DNA of 64,000 bases from Gari tellinella (Eukaryota > Mollusca > Bivalvia > Cardiida > Psammobiidae): assembly GCA_922989275.2 (NCBI GenBank), contig OV277861.1:26690479-26754478 (forward strand), written 5' to 3'. Below the pieces are notes generated by a model that was not told the origin of the DNA, made no database searches, and saw nothing but the letters and a program-made list of their open reading frames with translations. A program made the position numbers and the translations under genes. This document shows, in pieces, positions 7,906 through 61,400 of the stretch (the stretch's first letter is position 1; the number at the start of each line of letters is the position of its first letter).

Positions 7906-8115
7906 GACAGTAAAACCTCTCTATTACGACCACTAAAAATAAATAACTAATTGGTTGTATAAAAGACAGGTGACAGCTTAAAGCAAGGTGACAGTAAAAC
8001 AGAAAGCTCCTACAGGATCTTTCTGTTTTACTGTCACATTGCTTTAAGCAGTCACCTGTTCTTAACCACTAATAATTAACACACTTTATTGGTCGTAATA
8101 CAGGGTTTTACTGTA
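7906..8115. mobile_element. B3 palindromic MITE (CAGTAAAACCTCT ends)
   Basis: Terminal repeats CAGTAAAACCTCTCTATTAC and its inverse (GGGTTTTACTGTA) surround a core B relative with arms GCAAGGTGACAGTAAAAC. The ends have the look of TA-inserting pogo/Tigger elements (inference). Matching copies lie at 16173 and 35136, with a partial one near 44905. Confidence 0.75.
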
Positions 8116-14800: not shown

Positions 14801-16610
14801 GTAATACACCATCATTTAAAGATTTATTGAATAGGTCACACAAGGGAGAACTAATTTCCTTAGACATTGCACGAAGGATCTTGTTACTTATTCTATCAGG
14901 ACCGGTTGCTTTACCAATAGGAAGACATTATATAAATATTAGATGGCAGTTTGCGTGACATTCAAATTGTCAACCCGAGAAACAGCATGTCACCCCGAGG
15001 CGTAGCCGAGGGTGACATTCTTGTTTTCGAGGGTTGACAATTTGAATGTCACGCAAACTGACATCTAATATTTATTTTATTACACCGAGCTTATCAATTC
15101 TAGCTTTAGAATCGTCTCATTTGTATTTTATAAAATGTGTTGTGAATACTAATTTAGCGCAGACATGTACGTAACGCGGGAAACGACGTCGCCGTATATG
15201 ACGTCACATTGTTTATAATTATGTTACCACTCTTTATAACGTTCCAATGTATCCAATAGCGAACTCAATGTCAATGCTGACAGTACGTTTTCGGACGGAG
15301 TAAAAAAGTAATGTCCTTTAGAGTGACGTCACAAAAAGAATATCATAAAGAGTGACAGTATATTTTGAATAGATGTAAAAGACATGCAAAATGTTAACTG
15401 TAGGTCTATGGGAATTTAACATTGTAACTCAAAGCGAGGTGTAATAATCTATTATAGACATGACTTCATCAGGGGAAAGGGTAAAGAAGGGCATAGTAAA
15501 GTTGACTGGTAAGATAGCTGGTACTTGAACATTGTGTTCATCTAGAATTGTTTGCCCAGCAAAGTAATTATTTAAGAGATCAGCTTTGTCGGTAGTTTCA
15601 AATGCAAATGAGCCATTGTTTTCAAGTGTGGGTAAGGATTTACTGTCATTATTTGAAATAAACAGTTTAACTGTTTTCCACCAGTCCCTTGAGGAAAGAG
15701 TAGCCGATGATAATTTTTTAGAAAGGTTTCATAAAATGCTTGTTTAGTATTACGAATTAGAGTTACGGTTTCATTACGAATAGTTTTAAATCTATGCCAG
15801 TTATTAGCTGAATTGGTTCTTTTGGCCCTTTTATAAGCTCTTTTTCTAGATCTTAATTTGCGCTTTATTAGAGTATTTATCCATGGTGGTTCGAGTGGTT
15901 TAACACATATGGTCTTATTATGCACACACTGGTCTGTCAAATGTATAATGTGGTCGGTTATCTGTCGAGCAAATGTATCTATATTGTCGTCATGTACCGA
16001 TGTCCAGTCGGTCTCTCTGGCTTTCAGATATATTTAAACCGGCGATATTAATGCAGTAACTGTTTTAGACTGACGGATTATGTCGTCACTAAGACAGTGG
16101 AAAGAGTTAATACATTTAGACAGCAATTATCCATGTAGATATATGGATATTTTTGCGATCCAAGCATATGCCTATAAAACCTCTTTATTACGACCACTAA
16201 ATTTTGCTAATTATTAGGTGTTTACGACAGGTGACAGCTTATAGCGAGGTGACTGTAAAACAGAAAGCTCCTTTAGGAGCTTTCTGTTTTACTGTCACCT
16301 TGCTTTAAGCTGTCACTTTTCTTTTATATACTCTCAATTAGCCTCCGTTTTAGCTGTCGTAACATAGAGGTTTTACTGTAGTTGTAATGAAAATCGACTA
16401 CAAAACAAATAAATGCTAATTTTATACTATGCACTTACTTGGATTTACGACGTCGTTGATAAACTGCTGGTGGAAGACATGCCATGCACCTGAAGGGCTG
16501 ATGTCCGTCAGTTTGTTCAGAAACTCATCATAGAACTTCATCCCACCCAGTGCCGCAGGTAAATTCTTACGCATAAAACAAGACATACGAGAATGGTTAT
16601 CTTTCGACAT
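8818..16610 (-). CDS. Gene A: five-exon protein of unknown function
   Basis: Exons, in order of transcription, are 16610-16439 (ATG at 16610), 12021-11857, 10907-10716, 10418-10134 and 9062-8818 (TAA). Every junction has AG/GT signals and all four introns are phase 1, giving 353 codons with no internal stop. Five independent exons sharing one phase are the main evidence that it is real. The product has an N-terminal LNKLTDISPSGAWHVF segment, an aliphatic central part (SHVLVAEQLTVEVTLNGDV) and a charged C-terminus (NEEEQRRNRREQG). I see no signal peptide, membrane span or known motif and I do not recognise the family. LINE-2 and several MITEs fill intron 1. The extent of UTRs is unknown. Confidence 0.6.
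9107..9501. mobile_element. Pogo-like MITE nested in a second inverted-repeat element
   Basis: The inner part (9244-9453) has ends of the ACTCGATTCTTCGAACTCG type and GAGTTTCGACTGTA. A long perfect palindrome around GGCTTAGCC (about 9297-9360) lies inside it. The outer arms are TCACTTATAACGAAG near 9116 and GTTATAAGTGAGCTTCGTA near 9473. It sits in intron 4 of gene A, close to the acceptor of the last exon. Confidence 0.6.
9506..9752. mobile_element. A1 MITE, complete, TTAA-flanked
   Basis: The ends TTAACCCTTTCACCGCCAAA and GGCGGTGAAAGGGTTAA are near-perfect inverted repeats starting at TTAA, the target signature of piggyBac-type transposons. Core A occupies about 9648-9715 with centre CCGCGTAAAGCGG. 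It is the best reference copy of A1 in the window and lies in gene A intron 4. Confidence 0.85.
10545..10632. mobile_element. Fragment of the CGAGG-centred foldback element
   Basis: TATAAATATTAGTAGATTGC, then CAGTTTGCGTGGCATTCAAA and GTCAACCCGAGAAACAG, match the left arm of the 518-bp insertion at 14939. Only one arm is present. It is intronic in gene A, next to exon 3. Confidence 0.6.
11200..11340 (+). mobile_element. 3' end of a GCTCACC-type tandem-core element
   Basis: ACGGACCGACGACAACG is followed by a hairpin with stems TAGCTCACTTTGG and CATGGTGAGCT. This is the same terminus as the full element ending at 29809. It is a solo end inside gene A intron 2. Confidence 0.5.
11564..11812. mobile_element. 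A1 MITE, complete, TTAA-flanked
   Basis: It begins TTAACCCTTTCACTTTCA and ends TTTGGCGGTGAAAGTGTTAA, with core A at about 11600-11670 (centre CCGCGTGACGCGG). The right end lies 45 bp from the 5' splice site of gene A exon 2, in intron 2. Confidence 0.8.
12095..12345. mobile_element. B1 MITE, diverged
   Basis: The sequence runs ACCATATAGCATATGTTTCT, then a core B palindrome at about 12140-12215 (GATTGCGCCTGAAGTCGC centre), then the usual CATGTTCACGACTGTATGAA, and ends GGAGTAATGGGTTAA. The centre has lost its TTAA. Confidence 0.65.
12442..12660. mobile_element. A1 MITE, right end missing
   Basis: It starts TTAACCATTTCACTCTCAAT and carries a shortened core A (about 12481-12535, centre GCCGCGTCTGATCAGGA, one arm partly deleted). 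It runs into the 3' end of LINE-2. Confidence 0.6.
14345..14393. mobile_element. Tiny palindromic insertion with 7-8 bp direct repeats
   Basis: A 38-bp perfect palindrome (14351-14388, half-site AATTAATAAGCAC) splits the LINE-2 RT frame. The octamer GGTATAAC occurs at both sides, 41 bp apart. Removing one octamer and the intervening 33 bp restores VVIPGAKSDW across the site. So the insertion and its target duplication can be read directly. Eight-bp duplications are typical of hAT-type transposition, but this unit is far too short to be a normal MITE. Confidence 0.75.
14939..15456. mobile_element. 518-bp foldback insertion with GACAT duplications
   Basis: GACAT precedes (14934-14938) and follows (15457-15461) the insertion. 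Deleting it with one GACAT joins LINE-2 codons into MKSCLPIGKATGPDR. The left third is a long palindrome centred on GAGGCGTAGCCGAGG, with arms through TTGACAATTTGAATGTCACG. The remainder is bounded by ATTACACCGAGCTT and AAGCGAGGTGTAAT, so it may be two elements fused or nested. It has no coding capacity. Confidence 0.7.
16173..16380. mobile_element. B3 MITE beside gene A exon 1
   Basis: Ends CTATAAAACCTCTTTATTAC and AGAGGTTTTACTGTA surround arms GTGACTGTAAAACAGAAAGC and a perfect centre CTCCTTTAGGAG. The right end is 58 bp from the 5' splice site of gene A exon 1, in the intron. Confidence 0.75.
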
Positions 16611-34899: not shown

Positions 34900-52287
<17,388 letters not shown>

Positions 52288-52491: not shown

Positions 52492-55400
52492 ATGGGATTA
52501 GAACCGCTGGAATTTTCGTACTGCTTAACTGACAGTCCTGTGTTCCGGAAGATGTTGCAGGAGCACGAGAAGGAACTTGAACGAACGAGCAAAGCTATCA
52601 AATCCTTGATCAGTGATGGAAAAGAGCTCCTGACAGCCTCAAAAAGTAAGAATTTGCACTTCTTGATATATTTCATGGTAAAGTATTTTCCGTTTCTCCA
52701 TTCCATCACTTACCAAAGTGATTAAGCAGACACATTTGCAAAATGATAGATTTCAATGTTTCTCTGCAAAATTAGTTCCACAAAAATTTGACATTTAGCC
52801 TAAAATTTAGGATAGCATACACTTGTATGATGATGTATTGCTGCTACACCATTTTTTGTATTAAACGTTCATGCTATTTATTTTACATTTTCAAACCTTT
52901 AGCTGGAACGCCTTTACTTTGCCAGTCCCCAAAAATTCCCGGGAAATAATGGCATTTTACTGTTCATATAGAACCCCGTGAGAAATAGGCTATTTTGGAA
53001 AATAACGGGATTTTGACCTCAAAATCGGACTCTGCGCACCTTTTCGAACAGAATAATCAGGGCCTAGCGTATCTGAACCCCCAATGATCGCTTCGAAATC
53101 AAAGACAGAATGGTGGCGTTTTTATTCTTTGCATGGCAGCCTGTTTGTAAGGAAGAGCATGAGCGGGACCGGCAAAGTAGATTCTATCCCTTTAGCTTAA
53201 TTATCAGTTTGCGTCGCATGAGATATGGAATATAGCGCAAGTTTCAATTCCGTCAGTGTATAATTCTGTAGTCTATGACTATGTGGTACGAAACTGCTGT
53301 CAACATGAGCGACTTCATCATTCATGTGGAACTATTCTCTTTTCCAGTGCTACGTCATACACCCTTCATTTGGCATCCCTCAGTTTGTTTACACTTAGCG
53401 AGCACGCACACTCGGAGAAAACAAACCCGAAATCTACATAAGTGTTCTCCGAGTAGGGTCCGACATCATCCGAATGAAGGACCGAGAGTATGTGTATTTA
53501 TGAGTCATGACATAAAATACCCAGATGACTAGAAAAGAGAATGGTCCGAGCTATAGACACTTAACTGAGTCATTTGTCCTGTGAACCTAACTGCAGACGG
53601 ACCATTCTCAGTTTACATTGGTTTGACAAACCGTGTTCCTTTGCCTACCTTAATACGCATGCACTGGCTGCAATTTTGTCTGACTAAAGGTTAGAACTAT
53701 AGAGTATAGTTCCACATGAAGTCGCTCCATGATTGACAATAACGGTTTCGGTGCTTGTGCACGTTGTGATGAATGAGAAACTGTGAAAGGGATTTGCCCA
53801 ATGGAGAATCACGCTATCCTCCGTACCACAGCACCTGACGTCTTTTTTGTTTGCCCAGCTTAACCACAAGCGCTGCATGACGCTGGTAACTAAACTATTT
53901 GATGTAATTTCTGAGGACGTGCACAGTGCACACAATCTGCAATTATTCCGTTATTTGTATCATGTTTTAATGATTTAAATGGGAGGAAAAAATTCATCTT
54001 TCGTTTTGTTGATGTAGGACAGGAATTTCTCCCCCTCAGGTAAGAAAATTCACGCAGGGACTCGGCAAGCCACATGAATTTTTCTGACCCTAGGGGGAGA
54101 AATTTCTATCCTACATCAACACTCATGGAGGATTCTTATAATCTCCTTCTCTCTCTCTCCCTCTGATAGTGTTGTCCAACTCCAATTAGGCAGAAATAGA
54201 GCCAGACAAAAAAGACAGACATATATAATTAACCCATTACCCCATAGCACATTCTGCTTTACTTTCAGCCTGCTTTAAGCCACCATCTTCTAGGATATAG
54301 AAAATATTTATAATAGAACATATTGATGTCTGTATAGATTAGAACTATTTTCTGTAGTAGTGAATAAATTAAAGGTGTAAAAAGGTAAATTTATTGGGTA
54401 ATGGGTTAAAAAAATAAAACATCATGTTTTTTCCCCTCAAAAAGTGACTATTGAGTATTCTGAAAAGTAATCACAGCATATAATTTTGTAGAGACATTAG
54501 ATTTAAGATTTTTAAATACTCCCATAAATCTAGAGCTCTTGAATCAGAAACTCATCAACTGATAGCACGCTTCTCCATCTCACTGAATGACTGATAACAT
54601 TGAAATACTCAAGCTGCAATGAATGAGTTTACCTTGTTCTGAAGACAGTCTTGCATAGGGTTTATAAGCATTTTTGTAGCTATTTAAATTATGTAATGTA
54701 TACATAAATATGGGATATTGGTTTAGTATTTTTAACCATAACCTGCAGGCCCTGTCACCTGTCCAGATACTGAACACTTTTTTTGGTGGGGATGGGGGGG
54801 GGGGGGGGGGGGGTGTATTTGCCAGGTCACATGAAACGGCATTGATATCAGGAATAGGTAAACCAGTTGGCACTTAATTAGAACTGTTAGTATTGCTGTT
54901 AGTATTGACTTCGGAAAACCGAAATGTAATTTTTTAAACCAGCTACAAGTACCTCAGTAAACTGCGGAAATACAAACTTCTTGTCATCTTTTCAGCAGTC
55001 TATTATAACTGATAACTTTATGGATTGCTGTTTTATTTGTTTAAACCCTTATACTGCTGACTCTGCAAATGGACAATTCTTCCATTTTCTAAATAGTTAC
55101 CAGTTTACAAGTTACATTGACTGCCAGTCTGGAGGGGCCCAAAAATGTTTAGAATTATGATAAACAATGTAGACCCAGCTCTTGAAGGAGATATCTGATC
55201 TAAGTCTGCACTGTTTTCTTCTGTCTGGCATGAGTCCACCTCTTTCCTAAGAATTTTTCCTTATTATTTTATTAGCCAATGTAGTTGTTCAGATGATAGA
55301 CATATATTTAAATTTTAAAGTGAGCAGAGTTTTGCATACTAAGCATACTAATATTCGGCACAGTTTAAACAGTTTACCGGTAGTTAGGCCCATAATTTTG

Positions 55401-58400: not shown

Positions 58401-61400
58401 CGTAATTTATGTTAATTTCACTAGTATCAAAGCTGTCTTTCTAAATGGAAGTATATAACGTCTAATCTAATTGGATGTTTTCTAAATGACGCTGGGAGTT
58501 ACCTTTTTGATAACCAATAAAACGAGTAAAGACATGTGTAAAAGTTCGAAGCGGGCCGCGCAATTGGATTTCATTTCGGAAGTTTGGAATACTTTTTGTG
58601 TCTGTTACGTGATTATTAATACGGAGTTGTCGAGGAAATCAATTCTTAAAGCGACTCGCAACCGGATGGTGTACTTGTCAAAATAAAATAAAATACTCAA
58701 ATAAAAGCAAATTTGTGGCATTATTTGGCTTCTGACATTAAAAAAATATGATCAGTCCAAAAAAAGTCTCAAGAATCGTCACCGAATCTTAGATTTTTAG
58801 ATATTTTCCATCGTTTTTCTATACCGACTAGTAGACGGTATAGTTGTTGCTGTTGCTTCTCTACACGGGCTCAGACATAAACACGAGCCGAATTACGAAG
58901 TTGTAGGCACTTTCGACCGCAACACATTGAAATACGTTAAATCGATCCGAGATAAACGGATAGTTCCGTGGTCCATTGGTCTAAGCGGTTTCCCCTATTT
59001 TGTCTTCTGTCCGCCAATGCCGGGCCATGGGTTCGAATCCCACCAGAGACCAATATTTTTTTTTATTGAAATTCATTTTTTTTAAACATAATTTCTTATC
59101 CTAAACTAATTCTTTACCATTTATATAAGCGTTTGACACATATTTACAAATTACTATTTTTAATGCACCATCTGGTTGCGAGTCGCTTTAAAGGTAATTA
59201 ATATCAATCTAAAATGTTCGTTTGTTCAATATATTCGTAGAATTTTCTTATTTAATAGGCCCCGTATCGAGTATATTTTCCGAGGCGACAAGCGATTCCG
59301 CCGCTGTTACTCTCGTCTCAATTTCAGTCCGCAAAATGGTAAACATCTTCTTAAAGTTTAGATTGGGGGAAAATAATGTCGGAGATTCCGGTTTCGGTTA
59401 GTATTCATCTTTCTTTTCAGCGTTATTCGTAGCTTGTTTTCCGAAAATAATGTTGCAGATTCCCGCCATTGCCAGTACTAACGGTTTATGAAGCGTCAAT
59501 CAAAAGTTAATCTCGGTCAAACAGAAATAATCCCAAGACCCTGTCAATCACCGTTTCGATAGGGAAATTCCGCTTTGTGATTGGTTAATGATGCTATGCT
59601 CACGCCCGACACGCGTGACGGTGTTTGACATATGAAACAATTTACTCGAGTACACAACACAGAGCCGTGATTAAGGCTAGTCGCTTTACAGATTAAGACA
59701 TGTCGGCAAGATCAAAGCATGTCGCGAAGAGACCGCCAGGAAGGAAGGCATGTCGCCTGCGACAGGCGAAAAAGGCCTGGGGAAATCCCTGAATTACGGT
59801 AGTCTTGGTTTCATCACCAGTGTGCTAAGATTTAAAATGAACTCACTTAGAGCAGCTAAAATAATATCTGGTTACTTGAACACAATTGTTAGCATTGTAC
59901 CAAGCCTGAATCATGAAGATGTCTATTAAAATTATTATGTTTCTTGCTTCCTACACAACAGAATAAAATAAAAGGACTCAGCCCTAAACAATGATTGTTT
60001 CAGAGATTCAATTCTATGAAGAACAACATGACCCAGTTTTCTGATTTTGTTTTCTGTGAAATAAAAACATTTCTGAAGCCATAATCCTCAAAACTTTTTC
60101 TACTGATTGAAAAGATCATGTCTGCATTAACCCTTTACCTGATAGCCTATTTCTACTTAAAGCAGGTTGAAAGTAAAGCAGAATGTGCCTTTAAGGGCAC
60201 ATTCTGCTTTACTTTCAGCCTGCTTTAAGCTATTATGTGCTATAATATAGAAAATATTCCCTATAATACATTTTCATTACTGATTAAATTGGAACTATTT
60301 TCTTCAGCAGAGGAATAAATCATTTCTGCTAAAAGGCACTTCTATTGGGGAAAGGGTTATAACCCATTTACCCAAAATCCTGATTCTAGTATTGAAGATA
60401 GGTGCATGGCCACTTAAAGCAGGTTGAAAGTAAAGCAGAATGTGCCTTAACCCATTACCCCATAAATAGGCATTTTTACGCCTCTATTTTATTCATCTGG
60501 TAAAGAAAACAGCTCCAATTTATACAGTCATGTATAATTCTGTATCATAAGAAATATTTTCTATATCCTAGTAGATGGTAGCTTAAAGCAGGCAGAAAGT
60601 AAAGCAGAATGCGCCTTAACCCTTTACCTGTTAGTCTATTTCTAGTATTGAAGATAGGTGACTTCTTAAAGCAGGTTGAAAGTAAAGCAGAATGCGCCTT
60701 AGGGCGCATTCTGCTTTACGTTCAGCCTGCTTGAAGCTATCATGTGCTAGAATATAACAAAAGATTTCCTTTACTATATATTCATGACTGATTAAATTGG
60801 ATCTATTTTCTTCAGCGGAGGAATAAATAAAATGCGCTAAAAGTCGCTCCTATTGGGGAAAGGGTTAAGATGCATTCTGCTTTACTTTCAACCTGCTTTA
60901 AGTGGTCAAGTGTCTTCAATACTAGGTCATGGGGTTAAGGGTTATGGCACATTCTGCTTTACTTTCAGCCTACTTTAAGCTACCATCTGCTAGAATATAG
61001 AAAATAGTTCTTATCATACATATTCATAATTGTATAAATTGGAACTATTTTCCTCGATGGAGAAATAAATTAAAGGCGTAAAAAGTCGTATTTATGGAAT
61101 TATGGGGTAATGGGTTAAAGGCACTGTCCCAATAAGCTCAGTACTGCAGTGTCTGTAGGTGGTTCAGTTTGGGCTTTGGGTATACATACATGTAGAAGGT
61201 AGCAGCTTCAATCTGGGTTAAGATTAAGAAACACCTACATGTAAGTCCTTAATTAACCCTTCTAAGTCGCCTCTATATGTATCTATAGTTCAGACCCTGA
61301 TCAAAAGCTCCTGCAAGAGCTGTCTGATCTGGGTCTACACTCGATCAGACTGTTTTCAAAAAATGTCAATTAACATGTACATTATGTGTGTACAATGTAT

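Follow-up and report, generated by a model that had tools for sequence, protein, structure and literature searches.

In the genome of the bivalve Gari tellinella, insertions occur in excess at the TTAA at the dyad of the central palindrome in two unrelated families of MITEs. In the family termed B1, 2.45% of dyad sites are filled, compared to 0.96–1.24% of TTAA sites at the palindrome arms, and in the family termed F2, 2.65% of dyad sites are filled, compared to 0.17% of non-palindromic TTAA sites; a small sample of individual insertions is equivocal. Three B1 copies nested center-in-center in the window, meaning the whole 64,000-nucleotide stretch at positions 26,690,479–26,754,478 of contig OV277861.1 that was analyzed, are one instance of this genome-wide pattern, and it is the pattern rather than the locus that is of interest.

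The old consensus of B1 is 252 bp long and consists of TTAACCC ends (TTAACCCATTACCCC...GGGGTAATGGGTTAA), a short arm, a palindrome, and a long arm. The palindrome has two 34-nt arms with TTAA between them at consensus positions 84–87, and the arm TTAAs form its outer edges at consensus positions 51 and 117. In the old consensus the two arms are imperfectly complementary, with mismatched positions. In an idealized, perfect B1-like palindrome that was typed by hand, TTAA forms an exact 4-nt loop at −40 kcal/mol (DNA parameters). The sampled sequence contains 123 near-full-length copies of B1 and two further families, F2 and F4 (129 before copies without TTAA at either end were dropped), and 82 of them have TTAA at both ends, as left by a TTAA target-site duplication. 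The terminal inverted repeat places CCC next to TTAA, with 144 of 204 TTAA ends continuing as CCC and 29 as CTC. B1 is short, putatively non-autonomous, and high in copy number: in a random sample of 20 stretches, 200,000 bases in all, 62 B1-like matches after merging cover 11,240 bases, some of these matches being cores of another family, B2. On these sequence features, B1, at about 252 bp, is classed among the piggyBac-type MITEs.

The original prediction described three B1 MITEs in the window, with each inner copy occupying the dyad TTAA of the copy around it, twice in a row. This nest is confirmed, with B holding C and C holding D. Two details are corrected: B starts at about 60359, and D has a TTAG rather than a TTAA loop. 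The components of the locus are as follows.

60127..60360, forward strand: B1 copy A, intact neighbor of B, with empty dyad GTGCC-TTTAA-GGGCAC
60359..60446, forward strand: left (short-arm) half of B, the outermost B1 copy, reaching to its dyad and ending ...GAATGTGCC
60447..60450, no strand: dyad TTAA of B, which is the left target-site copy of C
60447..60615, reverse strand: long-arm half of C, the middle B1 copy, which occupies the dyad TTAA of B, ending ...GAATGCGCC
60616..60619, no strand: dyad TTAA of C, which is the left target-site copy of D
60616..60868, forward strand: B1 copy D (innermost), complete, of the young subfamily, at the dyad TTAA of C
60699..60702, no strand: loop of D's own palindrome, TTAG, in which the TTAA target is gone
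60869..60945, reverse strand: B1 copy C, short-arm half, starting GATGCATTC
60946..61118, forward strand: right (long-arm) half of B, running from its dyad to GGGTTAA and starting GGCACATTC

As read from the sequence, the order is A, then B, which contains C, which in turn contains D, with A adjoining B directly and C reversed relative to B. The junctions of C within B are GTGCC/TTAA...TTAT/GGCAC, the right terminal TTAA of C (60942–60945) having changed to TTAT, and those of D within C are GCGCC/TTAA...TTAA/GATGC. A scan for interrupted B1 copies, in which fragment pairs were judged by eye and many of those listed bring separate copies together by chance, places the breaks in both B and C at consensus 87/84, which is the dyad.

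B, C, and D arose by serial nested insertion over time. Identities were taken to an old consensus built from 53 older copies and a young consensus built from 30 young copies, with A–D left out of both. With their halves joined, B has an identity of 0.897 and C of 0.890 to the old consensus, while D is 0.984 identical to the young consensus (1.6% divergence) and A is 0.897 identical to the young and 0.849 to the old. B and C are 0.81 identical to each other, and pairwise differences among B, C, and D are 19–23%. It had been recognized at the outset that the locus might be a single duplication or an assembly error. That a single segmental duplication, a tandem expansion, or an assembly error produced the structure is very improbable: A does adjoin B directly, and other parts of the window (e.g., 37369–37616) show that copies have recombined, but B, C, and D are far diverged, C is opposite in orientation, and each break lies at a dyad with TTAA. 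A single duplication is excluded because the three copies diverge and their ages fit the nesting. An assembly error is unlikely and was rejected as well, since the two-sided nested pattern recurs at 539 other loci, where the inserts listed from both ends are all different.

The original prediction also called for the frequency of insertion at dyad TTAAs to be compared with that at arm and background sites. Exact patterns were searched on both strands of 1,597,604,326 bases in 80 contigs, and the fill rate was defined as filled half-sites over filled plus empty half-sites, so that a single insertion may count twice in numerator and denominator. Reversed-pattern controls gave 0 in every search. 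The filled B1 dyad junction, a B1 half-core followed by TTAACCC, occurs 1432 + 1501 = 2933 times in 1.6 Gb, compared to 58,676 + 58,241 = 116,917 empty half-sites, for a fill rate of 2933/119,850, or 2.45 ± 0.09%. At the B1 arm TTAAs there are 1052 + 1037 = 2089 filled and 107,375 + 107,581 = 214,956 empty half-sites, and the rate is 2089/(2089 + 214,956), or 0.96 ± 0.04%. The filled-arm pattern fixes two bases more than the empty-arm pattern, and correction by 186/144, taken from sampled element ends, raises the arm rate to about 1.24%. The dyad is thus enriched genome-wide, with a dyad/arm ratio of 2.5 raw and 1.97 corrected.

The same comparison was made in F2, a TTAA MITE of about 250 bp that is unrelated to B1 and has its own central palindrome. 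F2 dyads yield 188 + 199 = 387 filled and 7139 + 7063 = 14,202 empty half-sites (387/14,589, or 2.65%), while a non-palindromic TTAA inside F2 yields 11 + 20 = 31 filled and 9139 + 9308 = 18,447 empty half-sites (31/18,478, or 0.17%). The fill of the F2 dyad is therefore about 16-fold higher (15.8), the ages of the F2 subsets compared being unmatched. With B1 dyads at 2.45% and F2 dyads at 2.65%, two unrelated palindromes fill nearly alike. A two-sided pattern, consisting of a half-core, TTAACCC, 220–250 bases, GGGTTAA, and the other half-core, defines the 539 loci mentioned above. Among matches listed from both ends, 12 of 12 inserts are B1, all different, with 7 in one orientation and 5 in the other. 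Among junctions listed, 10 pairs chosen by eye give inserts of 137 to 452 bp.

Individual insertions give a less uniform picture. The 30 copies that resemble D most closely, including D itself, were chosen by element similarity and blind to site, and 4 of them lie in B1 dyads (the window's own, L005, L007, and L009). Tests of dyad and arm enrichment left out the window's D and used as background the 1936 TTAAs of random stretches, 28 of which are B1 dyads. Young D copies occupy B1 dyads in 3 of 29 cases (p = 0.0098), and all sampled insertions do so in 5 of 122 (odds ratio 2.9, p = 0.042); among copies other than young D, the dyad excess over the same background is not significant (2/93, p = 0.40). 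B1 arms are as enriched as dyads in the sampled sequence, at 14/122 compared to 88/1936 (odds ratio 2.7, p = 0.002). Of the 25 near-full-length copies found in the random 200 kb, only one (L038) lies in a dyad. When TTAA-centered palindromes were scored without regard to family, a score of at least 10 was reached at 4 of 123 insertions, counting D in the window, compared to 21 of 1952 background TTAAs. An underpowered test of stem matching was not significant, at 16/17 filled compared to 17/21 empty sites (p = 0.36). Exact B2 dyads and the exact B1 TTAA at consensus 212 are too rare in the random sample for rates. In the window, B1 copies at 47601–47835, 39796–40037, and 42765–43022 occupy TTAAs that correspond, by alignment, to the arm TTAA at the outer edge of other palindrome cores. 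An old nested B1 pair occupies 571–1014, and its host copy is missing the segment that should run from the dyad to one of the arms; at 54229 a left end is joined straight to the right half of B1.

A layout with a central palindrome is common to several TTAA families here. The F2 loop is very variable over four bases (TTTC, TTTT, TGCA, TTAA, and others), as seen at L043:9437–9684, L025:2694–2943, and L012:1028–1275. B2 is a palindromic MITE core (AGCTCC...GGAGCT) found in the window at 7957–8057, 16218–16323, 35194–35296, and 44907–45008; it has CTTAAAGC edges in common with B1, and its outer sequence differs. F4, found at about L019:304–516 and at L033:6021, is a 214-bp TTAA MITE (TTAACCCTTAGCCC...) whose central palindrome is long. 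F2 also sits in B1 dyads, once at L012 and twice at L028. At L028:2060–2559 there is a double nest of two families, in which an F2 lies in or beside a B1 dyad and itself contains, at a non-palindromic TTAA, a complete B1.

It was originally proposed that a TTAA-specific transposase prefers the cruciform tip. The direction of this proposal is borne out by the dyad/arm ratio of 2.0–2.5 in B1 and the 16-fold difference in F2, which leave the hairpin and the flanking bases as competing candidates for the feature that is recognized. The chances appear evenly balanced that a putative piggyBac-type transposase favors TTAA presented at the tip of a palindrome. In the piggyBac strand-transfer complex solved by cryo-EM, the TTAA of the target is reported to be unpaired, in a conformation essentially the same as that of the TTAA hairpin intermediate (PMC7351741). 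If the target must be unpaired in this way, it might be captured most easily where a palindrome extrudes as a hairpin. An extruded hairpin with TTAA as its four-base loop would have a shape near that of piggyBac's own excision intermediate, and a palindrome with a TTAA loop would present the unpaired state ready-made. The very high copy number of such palindromes in these elements would then lead to center-in-center nesting. The triple nest would be the expected rare tail of the genome-wide pattern, because a few percent of dyads are filled and there are very many copies, and the locus itself would be unexceptional.

The excess of insertions at the two palindrome centers can also be read in other ways. 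Perhaps the strongest of these, still on the unlikely side, is a local flank preference, in which C-rich bases beside TTAA are favored and the palindrome, which shows CC on both sides, attracts insertions with no need for a hairpin. Among 79 insertions outside B1 and B2, C is indeed more frequent than expected at −1 (0.22 compared to 0.15) and at −2 (0.22 compared to 0.17), and at −3 both C (0.29 compared to 0.19) and G (0.26 compared to 0.16) are raised. The B1 dyad is the top-scoring of seven sites scored in this way, and B1 arms are enriched as well. Shape is unnecessary to account for the B1 dyad/arm ratio, because flanks alone predict a ratio of 7 (95% 1.9–21). The same profile, which is noisy at 79 sites, fares worse with F2: it predicts a ratio of F2 dyad to F2 internal site of about 3.3, compared to 15.8 observed, and a ratio of B1 dyad to F2 dyad of about 2.5, compared to 0.9 observed. 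The random 200 kb contain only 4 sites matching CCTTAAGG outside B1 dyads, a number too small to test flanks directly.

Two further explanations place the excess in what survives or in what is counted. Survivorship, which seems improbable, supposes that insertion is untargeted and that intact palindromes are unstable and lose their centers, whereas the arms are kept apart and shielded when an insert lies at the dyad, so that filled dyads are now found in excess. The window contains B1 half-copies that start at or near the dyad (~9834, 48227, 49081, and 54247, the last within 54229–54409), as central breakage would leave, and the arm TTAAs, which flank the palindrome, would not gain the same protection. 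However, the 116,917 exact empty dyad halves persist, and the D subfamily, at 97–99% identity, already has 3 of 29 copies in dyads, which leaves little time for an effect of survival. Slightly less probable again is an artifact of counting and age, in which the filled sites that match an exact pattern differ in age from the empty ones and the ratio measures divergence. The patterns do differ by 1–3 fixed bases, and correcting the arm pattern is by itself enough to lower the ratio from 2.5 to 2.0. Those F2 copies that have a TTAA loop may be older than the rest, and dyad and arm enrichment are similar in the sampled sequence. Against this, the dyad and arm patterns share one B1 half-core, and projections from the random sample fall within 8% of the true empty counts for both dyad and arm. 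For F2-A the projection disagrees, with a ratio of 0.58 on 4 matches.

The suggestion that B1 has been selected to provide its own target was rejected, because the young subfamily is mostly without the dyad TTAA. In this youngest and most recently active subfamily the loop is altered, mostly to TTAG, and TTAA is kept in 2 of 30 copies. The B1 dyad is also used by the unrelated F2, as at L012 and L028. A broader form of the hairpin-tip reading may be offered tentatively, at somewhat less than an even chance. Putative piggyBac-type transposases would actively target hairpin-loop TTAA as a mimic of their own intermediate, a guild of MITEs with central palindromes would serve as mutual landing pads and form self-limiting nests, and the youngest subfamily, without the TTAA loop, would no longer be a target.

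If capture at the hairpin tip is correct, thousands of insertions would provide natural evidence that piggyBac-type target choice follows DNA shape, in the form of a pre-melted TTAA, in agreement with what the piggyBac cryo-EM structure suggests. Self-nesting in MITE-rich genomes would be explained, and designed TTAA hairpins could be preferred landing sites for piggyBac vectors. There would also be a testable reason for the loss of the central TTAA in the young subfamily, namely escape from being a target.

B1 resembles piggyBac-type transposons and MITEs in its TTAA duplication, its ends of the form TTAACCC(A/T)TT, its short and presumably non-coding sequence, and its high copy number. A target preference for palindrome centers was not found in the available text of the open-licence piggyBac papers searched. 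B1 differs in having a central palindrome with 34-nt arms and a TTAA loop, the dyad of which is a favored landing site.

The RAG transposase, a DDE enzyme with hairpin intermediates, inserts at hairpin and cruciform tips in vitro. The pattern described here is similar in that insertion would occur at hairpin tips; it differs in the enzyme family, and the RAG evidence comes from in vitro work while that given here consists of genomic footprints alone. PGBD5, a relative of piggyBac, is reported to have ChIP peaks at repeats that can fold into hairpins or cruciforms (PMC12324416).

Mobile elements that nest in each other or cluster, some with a slight palindrome bias, offer another likeness. Rice MITE multimers (cited as Jiang and Wessler 2001), the nested MITEs of Pithovirus (M1/M2) and Blepharisma (PMC10664404, PMC9942856), and plant LTR elements with a weak palindrome preference (PMC6911290) are examples. 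Dyad-specific self-insertion was not found in the available text of the open-licence papers searched on nested MITEs and plant LTR elements. Finally, REP palindromes have been reported as targets of bacterial insertion sequences (Tobes and Pareja 2006, PMC1525189), and in both cases repeated palindromes are landing sites for a transposase. REP is a separate repeat, whereas the palindrome described here is part of the MITE itself, the genome is animal-like, and the insertions fall at the exact dyad TTAA.
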